The position numbers were made by a program, and so were the translations under genes. A DNA stretch of 64,000 nucleotides from Desulfuromonadaceae bacterium (GTDB lineage Bacteria; Desulfobacterota; Desulfuromonadia; Desulfuromonadales; JAHYIW01), in assembly GCA_019429445.1 (NCBI GenBank), contig JAHYIW010000008.1, positions 1 through 64,000 on the forward strand, read 5' to 3'. Positions 5,157 through 18,632 of this stretch are shown here, piece after piece. The notes under the pieces are model-generated. The model was not told the DNA's origin, did not search any database, and saw only the letters and a list, made by a program, of their open reading frames with translations. Positions within the stretch are counted from its first letter, which is position 1, and each line of letters begins with the position of its first letter.

Positions 5157-6476
5157 CTAAAATAGTGCGCCATAGATCACCCCCGATATCGTCGCCATGA
5201 CGATGACCAGGACAACGAAAACCACCGTCTTTTTCGTCCCCATCACGCTGCGGATGACCAGCATGTTCGGCAGACTCAGCGCCGGACCGGCGAGTAGCAG
5301 CGCCAGCGCCGGGCCCTTGCCCATGCCAGCGCCGATGAGCCCTTGCAGGATCGGCACCTCGGTCAGGGTGGCGAAATACATGAACGCACCGACCGCCGAA
5401 GCGAACAGGTTGGCCGACAGGGAGTTGCCGCCGACCAGTCCGGCAATCCACCCCGAGGGGATCAGTGCTTCGTGGTCGGGTCTGCCGAGCAGGGCACCGG
5501 CAATCAGCACCCCCCAGAGCAGCAGCGGCAGGATCTTTTTAGCGAAATCCCAACTGGTATCGAACCACTCTTCCAATTCGCCGTCAGCATCGTGGCTGAA
5601 TGTCAGCAGAACGGTCAAGCCGATAGTCGCCGCCACAAAAGCCACTTCGGGATGGCTGGGCAAGAGCAGGGCCAGAATCAGGGGCGGCGCGGCAACACCC
5701 CCCATCCACCACGGGTTGACCTTGAACCAGAGGACCAGAATAACGGCCAGGGCCAGGGCAAACAGTCCGGTCATCACCCACTTCGAGGTGTAAATCGTCT
5801 GCCAGAGACCGCTTGGGTCTGCCGGTTTTCCCCAGTTGGCAAAGACCAGAATCCCGACCATCGACGCGAAGAACAGCGCATTCTGCCAGAGCGGGCGCTT
5901 CACTTCCGGCTCCGGCATCGCTGCGGCCGCCGCGACCTTGGCCAACTCTTCCTTACGGAAGAACAGATGCATAAGCAGGCCGATGATGATCGAAAAACTG
6001 ACCGCACCAACCGCACGCGCGATCCCCATCTCAGGCCCGAGAACGGTGGCGGTCAGAACAATCGCGAGGATATTGATCGCCGGGCCGGAGTAGAGGAATG
6101 CGCTCGCCGGGCCAAGTCCTGCGCCCATGCGGTAGATCCCGGCGAACAATGGCAGGATGGTGCACGAACAAACCGCCAGAATGCTGCCCGACACCGCGGC
6201 GACCCCGTAAGCCAGCAGCTTGTTCGCCTTCGGGCCAAGGTATTTCATTACCGCCGCCTGGCTGACGAAAACCCCGACCGCACCGGCAATAAAAAAAGCC
6301 GGTACCAGACAGAGAAGAACATGTTCCTGGGCATACCATGTGGCCAAATGGAGCGCTTCCCAGAGAGCATTCTCGACTCGCTGAGATTCCTGCAACCAAT
6401 CCAGCGGCAGATAATAGAAGGTGACGAAAACAACCATGATCCCCAGCAAAGGTTTCCACTCATTTTTCCAGATCAT
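5157..6476 (-). CDS. ArsP/DUF318-family permease
   Basis: 439 residues, about ten membrane helices in two halves of the permease family PF03773. The diagnostic cysteine motif is present: AVCSCTILPLFAGIYRMGAG followed by SAFLYSGPAINILAIVL; the second half mirrors it with ATLTEVPILQGLIGAGMGKG. Characterised relatives (ArsP) export trivalent organoarsenicals using paired cysteines; many others have unknown substrates. With an ArsR-type regulator directly upstream and three thiol-redox proteins downstream, export of a thiol-reactive metalloid or organometal is the best inference. Confidence 0.85.
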   Translation of the reverse strand: MIWKNEWKPLLGIMVVFVTFYYLPLDWLQESQRVENALWEALHLATWYAQEHVLLCLVPAFFIAGAVGVFVSQAAVMKYLGPKANKLLAYGVAAVSGSILAVCSCTILPLFAGIYRMGAGLGPASAFLYSGPAINILAIVLTATVLGPEMGIARAVGAVSFSIIIGLLMHLFFRKEELAKVAAAAAMPEPEVKRPLWQNALFFASMVGILVFANWGKPADPSGLWQTIYTSKWVMTGLFALALAVILVLWFKVNPWWMGGVAAPPLILALLLPSHPEVAFVAATIGLTVLLTFSHDADGELEEWFDTSWDFAKKILPLLLWGVLIAGALLGRPDHEALIPSGWIAGLVGGNSLSANLFASAVGAFMYFATLTEVPILQGLIGAGMGKGPALALLLAGPALSLPNMLVIRSVMGTKKTVVFVVLVIVMATISGVIYGALF

Positions 6477-6532
6477 GAAACTTCTCCACGAAAACTGTTT
6501 GGTTGCATCGCCAAATAGTAAGGCAAAAAAAA

Positions 6533-6865
6533 TTATTTACAAACAGCGTTGAGCAATGCCGCCTGATCACGGGCGCTCGATTCCAGCACCGATTCCACGC
6601 AACCGAAAAAATTCAGTATGCAGGGGACACGCAGGCGGTAAAAGACCTGGTTCCCGCGTTTGTCGTCGATGACGATTCCCGCCTTCTTGAGAACCGAGAG
6701 ATGTTTCGAAACGGTTGAAACATCCGCCCCGATCTGTTCGGTCAGGTCACAGACGCAGCGTTCTTCCTTTTCCAGCTCCTCAATGATGAAGAGGCGGGTC
6801 GGATGAGCCATGGCTTTCAGCACCCGGGCGCGGGCGCCAAGGTGGTTTTTCCGGTTTGGGTCCAT
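6533..6865 (-). CDS. ArsR/SmtB-family transcriptional regulator
   Basis: 110 residues with the winged helix: ARARVLKAMAHPTRLFIIEE, then ERCVCDLTEQIGADVSTVSKHLSVLKKAGIV and the wing RGNQVFYRL. The CVCDL motif at the start of the recognition helix region is the metal(loid)-sensing cysteine pair of ArsR proteins; two further cysteines lie in the C terminus (CILNFFGC). Start chosen at MDPNRKN because 47 upstream residues of the open frame are not family-like and cross the operator. Heads the operon that runs to ccdA. Confidence 0.87.
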   Translation of the reverse strand: MDPNRKNHLGARARVLKAMAHPTRLFIIEELEKEERCVCDLTEQIGADVSTVSKHLSVLKKAGIVIDDKRGNQVFYRLRVPCILNFFGCVESVLESSARDQAALLNAVCK

Positions 6866-6883
6866 AAGGAATGTCCTTTCAGT

Positions 6884-6903
6884 ATTTGGCAATATAGCCA
6901 AAT
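6884..6903. promoter_or_regulatory. ArsR operator (inverted repeat)
   Basis: ATTTGGC-aatata-GCCAAAT, a perfect 7-base inverted repeat with a 6-base spacer, 19 bases upstream of the arsR-like start. ArsR/SmtB proteins bind such palindromes and release them on metal binding, so autoregulation of the whole operon is inferred. Confidence 0.65.
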
Positions 6904-7125
6904 AGCCAAGAATGTCAAGGCGGGACTTGAGTGCCCGCCTGTTGATTCCCACAAAAAACGGATCAGAAGAGTCGAGAATACAATCGCATGTTCGGCGCGC
7001 CGCCATTGCGCGACATCAAAAACTTGAGGCAGGTGGCGATCGGCTAATAAATTTTAGACCGACTTAGACTCGAACCTCTAAGTCACTGAAATGATAGAAA
7101 TGAAGGAATTGCTTCAAGTGAAATA

Positions 7126-8552: not shown

Positions 8553-9881
8553 TCAGGCACGGGGAAGAAGGACTACCACCTCAAAACCCCCACCGGGGAT
8601 GTTTTCCGCGGTCACGCTTCCGCCGTGAAGTTTTACGGCGCGCTCCGTGATCGCCAGGCCGATGCCACTTCCGCCGCTGCGTCGGGCGCGATCCTCCTCA
8701 ACCCGATAGAATGGATCAAAAAGTCGTCCCAGGGCGGCGGGGGGAACACCAGGCCCCTGATCGCGAATGCTGATGTGGATATCCGTTTGCCGGACTTTCA
8801 GTTGCACTGTAACTTCACTGCCCGCCGGGGCATGGTGCAGAGCATTGCGCACGATATTCTCCAGTGCTTGTCTGAGGAGCTCCAGCGAACCGTTGACGGT
8901 TGCCGGTTCTGCTTTGCAATCGAGCGTCAGGTGCTGTCCCTCGAAAGCCGCGTCGGCAACGATTTCACCGAGCAGGATGTCGAGTGCAACCGGTTCTGTC
9001 CGACCAATCCCCTGACCGCTTTCCAGTTGCGTCAGGGTGAGCAGTTGTCCGATCATTATGTTGAGGCGTTCCGCTTCAAGTTCGATCCGGTTCAACGGCG
9101 CAATCGCCAGCTCCGCGGTTTGCCGACGGGCCAGTTCGAGGGCGACGTTGAGGCGCGCCAGGGGGGAACGGAGTTCATGCGAAATGTCACGCAACAATCG
9201 TTGCTGATTGTTGAGCAGTGTTGCGACGCGCTCGGTCATGTGATCGAAATCGATCGCCAGGTCACCGGTTTCCCCCCCCCATTTTCTCAGCTCCGGGGCA
9301 ACGCGGGTTTGCAACTGCCCGGCAGCGATCTCTCTGGTTGCTTCGCGCAAGCGTCTTAATGGTGCAGTCAGCGAGCGCGCCAGCATCCAGCAGACGCCAC
9401 CTGCGACCAGAAAAGCAATCAACAAGCGTATGCCCAACCGCCGGGGGTTGAGCAGGTGTTCAAGTCGTGATCGGCGCGGGAGTTCTGCGGCCAGCAGATA
9501 ATTATCCACCGGCATGACAACCCATGCTCCCCTCGGTCCCCGATCAGTCACCGGGCCGCCCTGATCGATGGCTCTGCTGGCAAGTTGCTCTAAATGGCGC
9601 GGCAGGGTTCGTCCGGGGAGCAGGTTTTTCCCATCCCGACTGAGCAGCAGCATGCGCGGCAGATTTTCATCGCGTGCCCGCCGATGCTGGTCGTGAAGAG
9701 CCTTGACTCCCTCTGTCCGGTAGCTGTCGATCAAGGTCTGTCCAGCCGCCGACAATTGCTCTTGCCGGAAATTAAGCATGGCGTTGGGGTCACTGTTAAG
9801 GGCGATCAAAATACCGATTGCCCCGATCAGGGTCATCGCCAGCCAGAAGTAAAGGAATATTTTCAGGAAGAGTGAGCGCAT
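8553..9881 (-). CDS. cpxA: CpxA-like sensor histidine kinase
   Basis: 442 residues: an N-terminal membrane helix (residues ~5-28), a periplasmic sensor segment of about 130 residues, a second helix (LLIAFLVAGGVCWMLARSLT), HAMP, then HisKA with the phospho-acceptor in DISHELRSPLARLN. The ATPase domain has an N box (NIVRNALHHA), G1 (DQGPGVP) and G2 (SGGSGIGLAI). The layout and the RSPLARL signature match CpxA. It is the second gene of the cpxRA-like operon, opposite a Spy/CpxP-like gene, so envelope stress is the likely input. Confidence 0.87.
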   Translation of the reverse strand: MRSLFLKIFLYFWLAMTLIGAIGILIALNSDPNAMLNFRQEQLSAAGQTLIDSYRTEGVKALHDQHRRARDENLPRMLLLSRDGKNLLPGRTLPRHLEQLASRAIDQGGPVTDRGPRGAWVVMPVDNYLLAAELPRRSRLEHLLNPRRLGIRLLIAFLVAGGVCWMLARSLTAPLRRLREATREIAAGQLQTRVAPELRKWGGETGDLAIDFDHMTERVATLLNNQQRLLRDISHELRSPLARLNVALELARRQTAELAIAPLNRIELEAERLNIMIGQLLTLTQLESGQGIGRTEPVALDILLGEIVADAAFEGQHLTLDCKAEPATVNGSLELLRQALENIVRNALHHAPAGSEVTVQLKVRQTDIHISIRDQGPGVPPAALGRLFDPFYRVEEDRARRSGGSGIGLAITERAVKLHGGSVTAENIPGGGFEVVVLLPRA

Positions 9882-9892
9882 GGGCGGGGCTT

Positions 9893-10609
9893 TTACGGCT
9901 GATCCGGGAGCGTTTGGTGGCAGCGGGTATACTGATAACCGCTGCCACGAATCGCCTGGATCCGTTCTCTGCCGTCGGCGTGACGCGCGAGTTTTTTGCG
10001 TAAGCTGCTGACGTGAACATCGACGCTGCGATCAAAAGGATTCAGCTCTCGATTGAGAACTTTGCGTGTCAACATCTCCCGCGTTACTACCGTTCCGGCG
10101 TGCTCCAGCAACTCGCCGAGCAAATCAAATTCTACCGAGGTGAGTGACAGTTCAAGTCGGTTGCGCCGAACCGTGCGGGTGGCGCGATCCAGACAGATGT
10201 CGTCAACAATCAACAGCTGCGTCGGCGACAAAGGGGGGGTGCCACCCGCCGCCCGCCGCTGGATGGCGCGAATACGGGCCAACAGTTCGCGAGGGTTGAA
10301 CGGTTTTGCCAGATAGTCGTCGGCACCGAGTTCCAGTCCGACAATGCGATCAATATCATCACCCCGCGCGGTGAGCATCAATACCGGAACGTGCAATTTC
10401 TCACGAATGCGCCGCAACACGTCAAAACCGTTCAGCTCCGGCAACATCACATCAAGAATAATCAACGCATATGATTTTTCCAGCGCCTGACGTACACCGA
10501 GGGGACCGCTGTGGCACGCGTCAACGCTGAACCCTTCGGCGCTCAGATAGTCGCGCAGCAGGCCGCAGAGCTCGTGATCGTCATCGATTATCAGTAGATT
10601 GTTGAGCAT
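9893..10609 (-). CDS. cpxR: CpxR-like response regulator
   Basis: 238 residues: receiver domain with IIDDDHELC (acidic pocket), phospho-acceptor in LIILDVMLPELNGFDVLRRI and Lys in YLAKPFNPRELLARI, then an OmpR-type winged helix (LTSVEFDLLGELLEHAGTVVTREML, VDVHVSSLRKKL, IRGSGYQY). First gene of the operon with the kinase. A consensus CpxR box lies in the divergent promoter region, which supports the identity and autoregulation. Confidence 0.9.
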   Translation of the reverse strand: MLNNLLIIDDDHELCGLLRDYLSAEGFSVDACHSGPLGVRQALEKSYALIILDVMLPELNGFDVLRRIREKLHVPVLMLTARGDDIDRIVGLELGADDYLAKPFNPRELLARIRAIQRRAAGGTPPLSPTQLLIVDDICLDRATRTVRRNRLELSLTSVEFDLLGELLEHAGTVVTREMLTRKVLNRELNPFDRSVDVHVSSLRKKLARHADGRERIQAIRGSGYQYTRCHQTLPDQP

Positions 10610-10801: not shown

Positions 10802-11353
10802 ATGAACAAGCGTTTTTTGGTACGTCCCTGGTCCGCGTTATTGCTCGTTGTTGCGTTCAGTTTTTTGGCTTTTGCGTCGCTGTCTCCGGCGCAGGCCGAT
10901 TCTGCTGAACACGGTGAAGATGGTTGCGACAGGCCGATCGATGACGAAAACTTTAATGATCGTGGCCCCGGTCAGCGCTTTGAACGCCTCGCCGAGGTTC
11001 TGGACTTGACTGATGCACAACGCGCCGAGGTTGAACAGATCGTTGCAAAGGAACGGGATGCGAATCGCGATATCCACCGGCAGCTGGCGGCAAACCGCGA
11101 CAAATTGCGCACTCTGACCGAAGGTGACACCTTCGACGAAGAGGCAATCCGTGCCGTTGCCGCAGAAAAAGCGCAACAACGGATTGAGCTGATGGTGTCA
11201 CATGCCGGCACTCGGCACGCACTTAATGCGCTCCTGACTCCGGAACAACGTGATCTGGCGAAAAAATTACGACCAAAGATGAAAGAGGGGAAAAAGGGGC
11301 GGCGCGGCCCCGAGAAAAGGGCTGATTGCGAACCGTGCTTCGGGCGGAGATAG
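10802..11353 (+). CDS. Spy/CpxP-like periplasmic protein
   Basis: 183 residues with a signal peptide ending SLSPAQA. The mature part is helical and charged with the LTxxQ signature of the Spy/CpxP family twice: LDLTDAQRAEVEQI and LLTPEQRDLAKKLRP. CpxP restrains CpxA; Spy is a periplasmic chaperone. An unusual feature is a cysteine pair in the basic tail (DCEPCFGRR) plus one in GCDRPID. Divergent from cpxRA with CpxR boxes between, so probably a regulon member. Confidence 0.85.
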   Translation: MNKRFLVRPWSALLLVVAFSFLAFASLSPAQADSAEHGEDGCDRPIDDENFNDRGPGQRFERLAEVLDLTDAQRAEVEQIVAKERDANRDIHRQLAANRDKLRTLTEGDTFDEEAIRAVAAEKAQQRIELMVSHAGTRHALNALLTPEQRDLAKKLRPKMKEGKKGRRGPEKRADCEPCFGRR

Positions 11354-15183: not shown

Positions 15184-15701
15184 CTATACCGCATCAGCAA
15201 TGCTCAAGGCGCCCCATATCAGGCTTTTTGCGGCGTTGGTAGATGTGTCATAAAACGACTTGATCCGCAGGTGGCCTTTGATCCACTTAAAAAACAGTTC
15301 GACCTGCCAGCGTTGTTTGTCAATTTCGGCAACGGTGGTCGCTGACACGGTAAAATTGTTGATAGGGTTTTTGGGCGATCCGAATCAGAACCAGGCCAAA
15401 GGCCTGGACGATGCGCTAATCCTTGCGTTTGTTGGCATCGGCCAAAGTGGAGCGTGGAGCGTGAAACAGCCCCACGCAAGCCAAGGGGAGACAGCTTCTC
15501 CCGATGAGAGTTCAGGCAGGTTCCAATATTGCGGAAGTTTTCACGACCAGCTATGTGTGCGTAGACCAGACACAGAAAAAGTTCAAAGGTCGCAAAGCTT
15601 CTGGCCTTGTAATCGCCTTGATACCGACGGACACACAGATTGAAATCGTGTCGTGGCAGAAACTGCAATAATTGTCGGAACACCGTTTGCCCTGAATTCA
15701 T
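15184..15701 (-). pseudogene. IS4-family (DUF4372) transposase remnant
   Basis: Read on the minus strand, an intact N terminus (MNSGQTVFRQLLQFLPRHDF, FLCLVYAHIAGRENFRNIGT) continues to GAVSRSTL. There a 7-base tandem duplication (GCTCCAC twice) shifts the frame; the true frame goes on LADANKRKD, has TAG in place of a Trp codon, then FGLVLIRIAQ. After a deletion that removed the catalytic core, the C terminus resumes in another frame with VAEIDKQRWQVELFFKWIKG, then HLRIKSFYDTSTNA. The remnant is dead by three independent lesions. A full-length relative is about 380 residues. Confidence 0.85.
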
Positions 15702-15931
15702 AGCCCCCTCCAGGAAAGAGTAGAGAGGGGTCACCTTACATCGGTGAGACGAATTCACATCGAAAACGGAACAGCTATATCAAAGAACTAAAGTTATCAG
15801 AAACTTACAGCAATCTGCTGTTTTTCAACCGGGAAGTAGAGTGTTTCAATAGATAATTTTTCGCGCCAGCAAGTCCATCGCTTCAGATGGTCACATCAAC
15901 GCACAGGCTTCAAGCGCCAAAGGAGAATTTT

Positions 15932-18106
15932 ATGGTTTGGAAAGATTTGCGTCTGGGACTAAAGTTCACCGCCGGTTTCGGTTCACTGCTGCTATTGATG
16001 AGTGCCATCGGTGCGTGGTCATTTTTTGGGGTCAACAATATTGTTGACGATGCCGGGCAGGTGATTGCCGGCAATCAGCTACGCGGGATGATTGCCCAGC
16101 GTGAGGTCGACCATCTCAACTGGTTAAAAAAACTCAACGATTTTCTCAACGACGAACACGTTACCAAACTGGACATTGAAACGGATGAGCACAAATGCGG
16201 CTTCGGCCAGTGGTATTACGGCGAGGAACGTACCAGGGCGCAGCAATTAATCCCCGAACTGCGCGGTACGCTGGAGCGGATCGAAGAACCGCATAAGCAA
16301 CTGCACGCTTCGGCAATCAAGATTGAAAAACTCAACCGCGCCATTGACCCGGCAATCAGCACCTTTCTCGCCCAGAAAGAGGTCGATCACCTCATTTGGG
16401 TCAATAATATCTATGATTACCTGCTTTTGAAAAAAGCGCGCATCGGCATACAAACGGATGATCATCTTTGTGGTCTGGGGAAATTTATCTACGGCGAAAA
16501 AGGTAAAGAGTTGAGCAACACAGATGCGCAACTTGCCAGTCTGCTCGAACAAATCAAGGAACCCCACCGGCAGCTCCACGACTCCGCAATCGTCATTGAG
16601 CAAGCGGGAACCAATTACGAACGTGCCCAACAATTATTCCGTGACCAGACTATCCCCGCGCTCAGCAGCACCCGGAAGGTGATTGAGCAGCTTCAGCAAC
16701 GCGCTGACGAGTTGATTGCCGGGGTCACTGCGGCCCGCCAGGTTTACGCGAGCGAAACCGCGCCGAGTCTGATAGAAATCCAGAAACTGCTCAAGGAAGT
16801 TATGGACACAACGACCGCCAATATCATGAGCGACGAAGAGATGCTCGCCGAAGCCTCAACCACACGCGTCGGCGTGCTGATCATTCTTCTCGTCGCCCTG
16901 CCCCTCGGCATCATTCTCGCGCTGATTATCGCTCGCGGTATTCAAGGTCCGGTCCAACAACTGGTTGTCATGATCCGCGAGATGGAACGCGGTCGCCTCG
17001 GCATGCGTCTCAACCTCAATCGCTCCGATGAGATCGGCCAGATGGGGGCCACCATGGACGCCTTTGCCGACAGCCTTGAAAACGAAGTGGTCCATCCCCT
17101 GCAACGCCTCGCCGACGGCGATCTGACCTTTGAGGTCACCCCCCGAGATGAGCGCGACAGCCTGCGCGGCGCATTGCAGAAGCTGGGGCAGGATCTCAAT
17201 GGCATTCTCGGCCAGGTCCATGTGGCTGCCGAGCAGATCGCCTCGGGGAGTGCGCAGGTTTCCGATTCGAGTCAGTCCCTTTCGCAAGGAGCCGCCGAGC
17301 AGGCCAGCTCGCTGGAAGAAGTCACCAGCTCGATGACCGAGATGGGTAGCCAGACCAAGCAGAACGCCGAGAATGCCGGACAGGCCAACACCCTTTCCGG
17401 CGAGACCAAAGCTTCCGCCGAACGCGGCAATCACCAGATGCAGGAGATGGTCGCGGCGATGAACGACATCAATGCCTCCGGCAAAAGCATTTCGCGCATC
17501 ATCAAGACCATCGACGAGATCGCCTTTCAGACCAACCTGCTGGCGCTCAACGCTGCCGTCGAAGCGGCCCGCGCCGGGCAGCACGGCAAAGGCTTCGCCG
17601 TCGTCGCCGAAGAGGTGCGCAACCTCGCGGCGCGCAGCGCCACCGCCGCGCGGGAGACCGCCGAACTGATCGAAGGCTCCGTTGCCAAGACCGCCAACGG
17701 CGCGCAGATCGCTGAGCAGACCGCCGAAGCCTTAAGCGAGATTTCGCAAAGCGTCGTCAAGGTCACCGATCTGGTCGCTGAAATTGCCGCCGCCAGCAAC
17801 GAACAGGCGCAGGGGATCTCGCAGATCTCGCAAGGGCTTGGGCAGATCGATCAGGTCACCCAGCAGAACACCGCCAACGCTGAAGAAAGCGCCGCCGCCG
17901 CCGAAGAACTCTCCGGCCAAGCCGCTGAACTACGGCAGATGCTGTCACGATTCAAGCTCAAGCAACAGGGTCTTTCCGCCTACGCCGCCGCTCCCACCGG
18001 CAGCGGGAAGAAACAGCAGATCGCCCTGCACTGGAACACCAGCGCACCGGCGTCCGGCACCAAACCGGTCATCGCTCTGGACGACAACGAATTCGGCAAA
18101 TACTAA
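15932..18106 (+). CDS. methyl-accepting chemotaxis protein with two periplasmic CZB domains
   Basis: 724 residues. First membrane helix ~9-33; periplasmic region ~35-312; second helix ~313-334; HAMP; then the cytoplasmic signalling domain with the hairpin tip [20 protein letters not shown]. The periplasmic part holds two CZB-type zinc motifs: HLNW (61), CGFGQW (89), HKQLH (121/125), and HLIW (153), CGLGKF (180), HRQLH (212/216). CZB domains are usually cytoplasmic and C-terminal, so this placement is unusual. ATG 15932 follows AAGGAG. The tail lacks the CheR/CheB pentapeptide. It is coupled to cheW downstream. Confidence 0.92.
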
Positions 18107-18116
18107 GGAGGTCGCC

Positions 18117-18632
18117 ATGAGCAAAGCGCAAAAGCCCGACTTTGAACTCTTTGACGCGAGTGAGGAGGAAGAAGATACCCAGAAGGGGAAATACCTCACC
18201 TTCAAACTCGCCAAAGAAGATTACGGCATCGAAATCAAATATGTCACCGAGATCATCGGCATGCAGCGCATCACCGAAATCCCCGACATGCCCGAGTTTC
18301 TCAAAGGGGTGATCAACCTGCGCGGCAAGGTCATTCCGGTGATGGATGTGCGCATCCGCTTCAACCTGCCCGGACGTGACTATGACGATCGCACCTGCAT
18401 CGTCGTCGTCGATATCGACGGTCGCGCGATGGGGTTGGTGGTCGACCGGATGAACGAAGTCAGCGACATCCCCGACAGTCAGATCGAACCGCCGCCACGC
18501 TCCGGGAATGAACGCGGGCGCTATGTGCAGGGGATGGGCAAGGTCGGAGACGAAGTGAAGATTCTGCTCGATGTCAACAAGCTGCTGGCAGAAGATGAGC
18601 TGGATGCGTTGAGTGGTGTCGAGACAGAATAA
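18117..18632 (+). CDS. cheW: CheW chemotaxis adaptor
   Basis: 171 residues, CheW fold: KYLTFKLAKEDYGIEIKYVTEIIGMQRITEIPDMPEFLKG then VINLRGKVIPVMDVRIRF, DRTCIVVV and GLVVDRMNEV. It links receptors to CheA. AAGGAGG lies eight bases before ATG 18117. Ten bases downstream of the CZB receptor, forming a two-gene operon without CheA, so it must serve a kinase encoded elsewhere. The 25-residue acidic N terminus is a small addition. Confidence 0.93.
   Translation: MSKAQKPDFELFDASEEEEDTQKGKYLTFKLAKEDYGIEIKYVTEIIGMQRITEIPDMPEFLKGVINLRGKVIPVMDVRIRFNLPGRDYDDRTCIVVVDIDGRAMGLVVDRMNEVSDIPDSQIEPPPRSGNERGRYVQGMGKVGDEVKILLDVNKLLAEDELDALSGVETE

Follow-up and report, generated by a model that had tools for sequence, protein, structure and literature searches.

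The window analysed here, the whole stretch of 64,000 nucleotides from a Desulfuromonadaceae bacterium, contains at 15932..18106 on the forward strand an open reading frame for a transmembrane chemoreceptor of 724 amino acids, with its stop codon at 18104-18106. The ATG at 15932 was preferred as start over an in-frame ATG at 15887 because an AGGAG ribosome site is found just upstream of the former. Pfam assigns to this protein two CZB domains (PF13682, protein-level E-value 1.1e-30), a HAMP domain (PF00672, 3.3e-10; residues 333-383, 16928..17080) and an MCP signalling domain with a canonical hairpin tip (PF00015, 3.6e-50; residues 489-643, 17396..17860). The order along the chain is TM1, CZB1, CZB2, helix copies, TM2, HAMP, MCPsignal and a C-terminal pentapeptide; the part directly after HAMP (residues 384-437 approximately, 17081-17240) resembles a second HAMP-type segment, which Pfam does not call. 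The pentapeptide EFGKY (18089..18103) fits the xZxxZ consensus of a CheR/CheB tether (PMC7390727), and among 184 CZB receptors with such an ending 61% have an N-terminal CZB (PMC7390727). Ten bases 3' of the receptor gene starts cheW (18117..18632, +; PF01584, 1.5e-42), probably on the same transcript; a cheW relative is present at 18 of the 79 named loci. On the other side, less than 200 bases upstream, lies an open reading frame fragment (15222-15758, minus strand) with DUF4372, a transposase-type N-terminal domain. Farther upstream are a Metal_resist/LTXXQ gene (10802-11350, +) beside a divergent histidine kinase/response regulator pair (8556-10609, minus strand), and ArsR and ArsP genes (5160-7006, minus strand).

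In a genome-wide search with the PF13682 profile CZB1 scores 64.5 bits and CZB2 53.0 bits (curated cut-off 29.4), and no further CZB match occurs in the genome, which has about eight MCP signalling domains and five CheR matches. The core of CZB1, the proximal module, comprises residues 61-131 (16112..16324) and that of CZB2, the distal module, residues 153-220 (16388..16591), so that the cores repeat at 91-92 residues. Each has a complete 3His/1Cys set: H61 (codon 16112-16114), C89 (16196-16198), H121 (16292-16294) and H125 (16304-16306) in CZB1, and H153 (16388-16390), C180 (16469-16471), H212 (16565-16567) and H216 (16577-16579) in CZB2. The receptor has no cysteines other than C89 and C180. 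A preceding sequence-only reading had noted the full H...C-G-x-G...HxxxH set in both repeats; this is correct, and the conserved motif can now be given as HxxW...CxxGx(W/F)...HxxxH. All eight ligands are invariant in 21 aligned homologues, and because of this and of the E-values a chance origin of the CZB pair is excluded.

Both CZB domains are bracketed by two hydrophobic segments, which are uncharged save for R312 at the edge. TM1 (residues 13-35 approximately, 15968..16036) is indicated by hydropathy, by charge and by a predicted helix 8-73 that is continuous with the first CZB helix, and TM2 (residues 312-334, 16865..16933) by a hydropathy of up to 3.35. The receptor has three Lys and Arg residues before TM1, none after it and five in the 26 residues after TM2, which fits an N-in orientation. 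Averaged over 89 tandem homologues, the number of Lys and Arg per 12 residues falls from 2.89 to 0.57 across TM1 and rises from 1.53 to 2.25 across TM2. CZB1 and CZB2 sit between the membrane helices and are therefore predicted to be periplasmic; that the receptor has two periplasmic CZB domains is, judged from these sequence features, close to certain. The placement proposed beforehand is thus supported by the bracketing and by the charge pattern. As hydropathy and charge agree that TM1 spans the membrane, the case of a non-spanning N-terminal helix, which had been raised against that proposal, did not arise, and a cytoplasmic location of the CZB domains is ruled out by TM1 and the charge bias.

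That CZB domains are mostly C-terminal and cytoplasmic is true for the majority, but periplasmic N-terminal CZB domains have already been catalogued (PMC8262984, PMC7390727), with 384 sequences representing about 3.9% of CZBs (PMC8262984). This subgroup is like the receptor in that TM1 and TM2 of an MCP flank the CZB and in that the Cys is not followed by the Arg that is usual in soluble CZB receptors; position 2 after the Cys is poorly conserved or Ala (PMC8262984). Unlike for the receptor, the passages of that study on the subgroup make no mention of two or three CZBs or of nesting. In the open literature we found no characterised periplasmic CZB. In most of the other CZB receptors retrieved from the order, too, the CZB lies between two hydrophobic segments, and some of them, such as L006, L010 and L031, have a single CZB directly after TM1; in two (L111, L112) such bracketing was not seen.

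The sequence-only reading had described the two domains as a tandem, which holds in so far as there are two Pfam CZBs, but they do not simply follow one another. When residues 232-261 are compared with later positions in the 21 homologues, an offset of 36 scores 1.04 and all other offsets from 8 to 49 score below zero. The two copies of this helix extend over residues 229-262 (approximately; 16616..16717, motif TIPAL) and 263-297 (approximately; 16718..16822, motif TAPSL), the second leading to TM2. By a strict pattern, most single-CZB receptors have one TLPAL-like motif, many tandems have two and the triples have three. The distance between TM1 and TM2 grows in the same steps, with medians of 179 residues for one CZB (n = 8), 304 for two (n = 89) and 430 for three (n = 2), while 60.5, 94 and 128.5 residues, respectively, separate the last CZB from TM2; in 20 further single-CZB receptors the spacing spans 169 to 212. 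With every additional CZB the outgoing part of the chain is longer by about 92 residues and the returning part by about 34-36, therefore a new module appears to be inserted at the tip.

An AlphaFold2 model of the sensor region (21 homologues; pLDDT 88.9, pTM 0.71) consists of helices 8-73, 90-95, 98-106, 110-134, 142-165, 181-195 (broken), 199-224, 229-297 and 301-322. Its residues 138-260, which include CZB2 and the first helix copy, superimpose on the CZB of E. coli DgcZ (3t9o_B) with Z 12.7 and 2.5 A over 115 of 120 residues, the ligands being in register. For the single-CZB homologue L010 (28 sequences; pLDDT 91.4; helices 9-74, 91-107 (broken), 109-137, 142-174 and 178-215) residues 47-173 match 3t9o_B with Z 13.0 and 2.3 A over 116 of 120 residues, again with ligands in register, and its last helix, 142-174, inside this match, corresponds to residues 263-297 of the 724-residue receptor. 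According to these helices and superpositions, the first helix of CZB1 would continue TM1 and its last helix would lead to TM2, the usual layout of four-helix receptor domains. Because the last helix is duplicated and each CZB is modelled on the DgcZ fold, CZB2 is placed in the tip of CZB1. We therefore regard it as very probable, from sequence repeats and models together, that CZB2 is inserted between the third and the last helix of CZB1 and that the duplication is nested. A bead-on-string tandem is ruled out by the helix repeat at offset 36 and by the length steps.

DgcZ itself (3t9o, 4h54), although alike in modelled fold and ligand positions, is cytosolic, and its single CZB lies N-terminal to GGDEF and is not split by an inserted copy. 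In HBM (McpS) and TorS/PilJ sensor domains two helical bundles are stacked, with the distal bundle set into the proximal. The sensor region as a whole gives structural matches to such sensors, but the superpositions are loose (rmsd 16 A for McpS and 8 A for PilJ), while repeats and secondary structure agree with stacked bundles. The receptor was not filed as HBM because HBM (PF16591) gives no Pfam match in it up to E 1; HBM domains are not known to carry a zinc motif. Whole-model searches with Foldseek found nothing below E 0.1, the matches mentioned here being from VIA-align, and a PDB sequence search with the sensor region found no relative, because the region is too divergent. An intramolecular C89-C180 disulfide switch was considered, but the stacked model suggests that the two sites lie far apart.

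Searches for tandem, double or periplasmic CZBs in the literature found nothing on a nested architecture, which is weak evidence as they covered open papers; the phrase "two CZB domains" had one match, in a TlpD preprint, in a passage on the DgcZ dimer. Single periplasmic CZBs in chemoreceptors are known already, whereas the conserved nested form with two or three telescoping modules is newly described here.

Of 98 genomes around that of the window, its own included, 53 carry CZB domains, and tandem pairs with the same period of about 92 residues were counted as paired matches in its own genome and 22 relatives. In a phylum sample 56 of 395 genomes had matches, many of them to a single CZB. 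A scan of contigs from named genomes, which did not select on the Cys or on HxxxH, found 246 relatives, of which 80 were kept. These come from Desulfuromonadales, Desulfobacterales, Desulfobulbaceae, Magnetococcales, SAR324, Auribacterota, Latescibacterota, Zixiibacteriota, Krumholzibacteriota, Spirochaetes and Phycisphaerales. The hosts of tandem receptors are mostly sediment, anaerobic, sulfate-reducing and magnetotactic lineages from about ten phyla. Together with the earlier loci the deduplicated set has 91 tandem, 12 single and 2 triple entries. Both sites are complete in 89 of the 91 distinct tandem proteins. One exception, L079 (ORF from 253), has in repeat 1 the Cys replaced by Ser and both C-terminal His by Tyr together, with repeat 2 intact; it represents a natural half-site variant. 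The other is a degenerate protein of 361 amino acids from Magnetococcales (L107, minus strand, ORF from 3736), which has two CZB-like stretches without Cys and no MCP domain and lies near an intact tandem receptor. In both triple receptors, one from a Desulfarculaceae MAG (L084, 4364 on) and one from Desulfatibacillum alkenivorans DSM 16219 (L101, 5971 on), three CZBs and three copies of the last helix lie between TM1 and TM2.

A tree was built of 213 CZB cores from 75 columns, and many of its forks are unresolved. The second repeats group together in it, with 3 label changes against a shuffled mean of 66, while the first repeats group with most single CZBs, and this split by position holds across phyla. 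The simplest reading of the tree is one old duplication that spread as a unit. The mean pairwise identity is higher among CZB1 (0.58) than among CZB2 cores (0.40), also in loci not picked by a DNA pattern and with pattern residues excluded (0.61 and 0.48). Five residues after the Cys, all 21 aligned proteins have Trp in CZB1 and Phe in CZB2 (W94 and F185 in the receptor), therefore the two sites are probably not equivalent. The residue directly after the Cys is Gly in both receptor repeats.

TlpD and McpA share with the receptor the control of an MCP signalling domain by a CZB and, with CZB1, the C-x-x-G-x-W motif. The CZB of these proteins lies at the C-terminus in the cytoplasm and in most has Arg after the Cys, while in the receptor it is N-terminal, periplasmic and double, with Phe for Trp in CZB2. 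In TlpD structures the loss of the His315-Zn bond is accompanied by piston-like shifts of two CZB helices (PMC12871147), and for McpA a 2026 preprint describes Zn2+ availability as messenger of the outside redox state and as the main cue, over cysteine oxidation (PMC13370339). With these analogies, and counting also that the 89 tandem proteins keep their ligands although the scan did not select for them, we lean with moderate confidence to a taxis receptor for extracytoplasmic Zn2+ availability. Each 3His/1Cys site would bind Zn2+, as in TlpD, DgcZ and McpA. Binding or loss at CZB1 might shift the TM1-continuous helix, which carries H61, against the helix of H121 and H125, while CZB2 would act via the helix of 69 residues leading down to TM2. 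This shift would be relayed through HAMP to the MCP domain and by the CheW encoded next door to CheA, and the EFGKY tail may help in adaptation. With two unlike sites, one having W94 after C89 and the other F185 after C180, the receptor could cover a wider range of zinc concentrations. The sensing of external zinc, put forward from the sequence before, is by these analogies plausible, and possibly the zinc serves as a redox proxy, since free zinc may report external redox or sulfide conditions.

The models do not decide this question. Z-scores of 12-14 are common between helical bundles of unrelated proteins, the models are monomers, and the citrate/malate receptor MCP2201 scores as high as the DgcZ CZB; because four-helix sensor folds are common, the fold matches do not fix the ligand. 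The zinc could be a permanently bound staple of the CZB bundles, with another cue, for instance an organic acid or a binding protein as partner, read by the four-helix surface. The ordinary fold (further matches are Tsr, PcaY_PP, TorS and McpS) would suit this, as would the rare homologues which keep the module and lose the site (repeat 1 of L079, and L147). Moreover, the affinity of DgcZ for zinc is sub-femtomolar (PMC8262984), and a site of such strength could be permanently filled outside the cell and have a structural role only. The McpA evidence, in addition, concerns a cytoplasmic CZB, whereas the CZBs of the receptor are periplasmic. However, nearly all tandem proteins have kept the ligands, although the distal module otherwise varies freely, and the CZB proteins characterised so far signal by their zinc occupancy (PMC8262984, PMC13370339). 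A purely structural zinc therefore seems to us possible but not probable.

Two other explanations are both improbable. The sites might read Fe2+, Cu+, Co2+ or Cd2+ instead of Zn2+ in a metal-exposed organism: periplasmic metal occupancy follows the external supply, and the Metal_resist/LTXXQ gene lies about 4.6 kb upstream with ArsR and ArsP genes beyond it, but none of these is adjacent to the receptor gene and the 3His/1Cys site is a Zn2+ holder in DgcZ. Direct sensing of HOCl or other oxidants outside the cell by the Cys-Zn centres, as first proposed for TlpD and also suggested by the sequence-only reading, would agree with the invariance of both cysteines and with the HOCl-reactive Cys of the TlpD, McpA and DgcZ CZBs (PMC6715182, PMC8262984), but found no support here, since the owners live mostly in sediments or are sulfate-reducing or magnetotactic and not from inflamed hosts, zinc speciation outweighs cysteine oxidation as cue (PMC13370339), and the Arg that follows the Cys in soluble CZB receptors is absent, with Ala or Gly there in 85 of 89 first repeats.

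The series of one, two and three nested zinc modules is a natural one for asking how occupancy of a far site reaches the membrane, and it bears on whether the cue of CZBs is an oxidant, zinc as such or zinc as a redox proxy. The very low solubility of ZnS and the kinds of host organisms give rise to a bolder idea, which we hold to be rather unlikely: the periplasmic series with tip-inserted modules might read free Zn2+ over a very wide range, and sediment bacteria might steer along the sulfide/redox front by zinc. This is conceivable because free Zn2+ is kept extremely low by sulfide buffering, and if so a very tight CZB site would be in range and not saturated.

The order contains a second class of CZB receptors (L113-L130), in which two TMs enclose a sensor region of about 300 residues with one centrally placed CZB; this CZB is shorter, with 23 instead of 28 residues from the motif Gly to HxxxH. 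Among the owners of the nested receptors are the cultured type strains Malonomonas rubra DSM 5091, Desulfuromusa kysingii DSM 7343 and, with the triple form, Desulfatibacillum alkenivorans DSM 16219.
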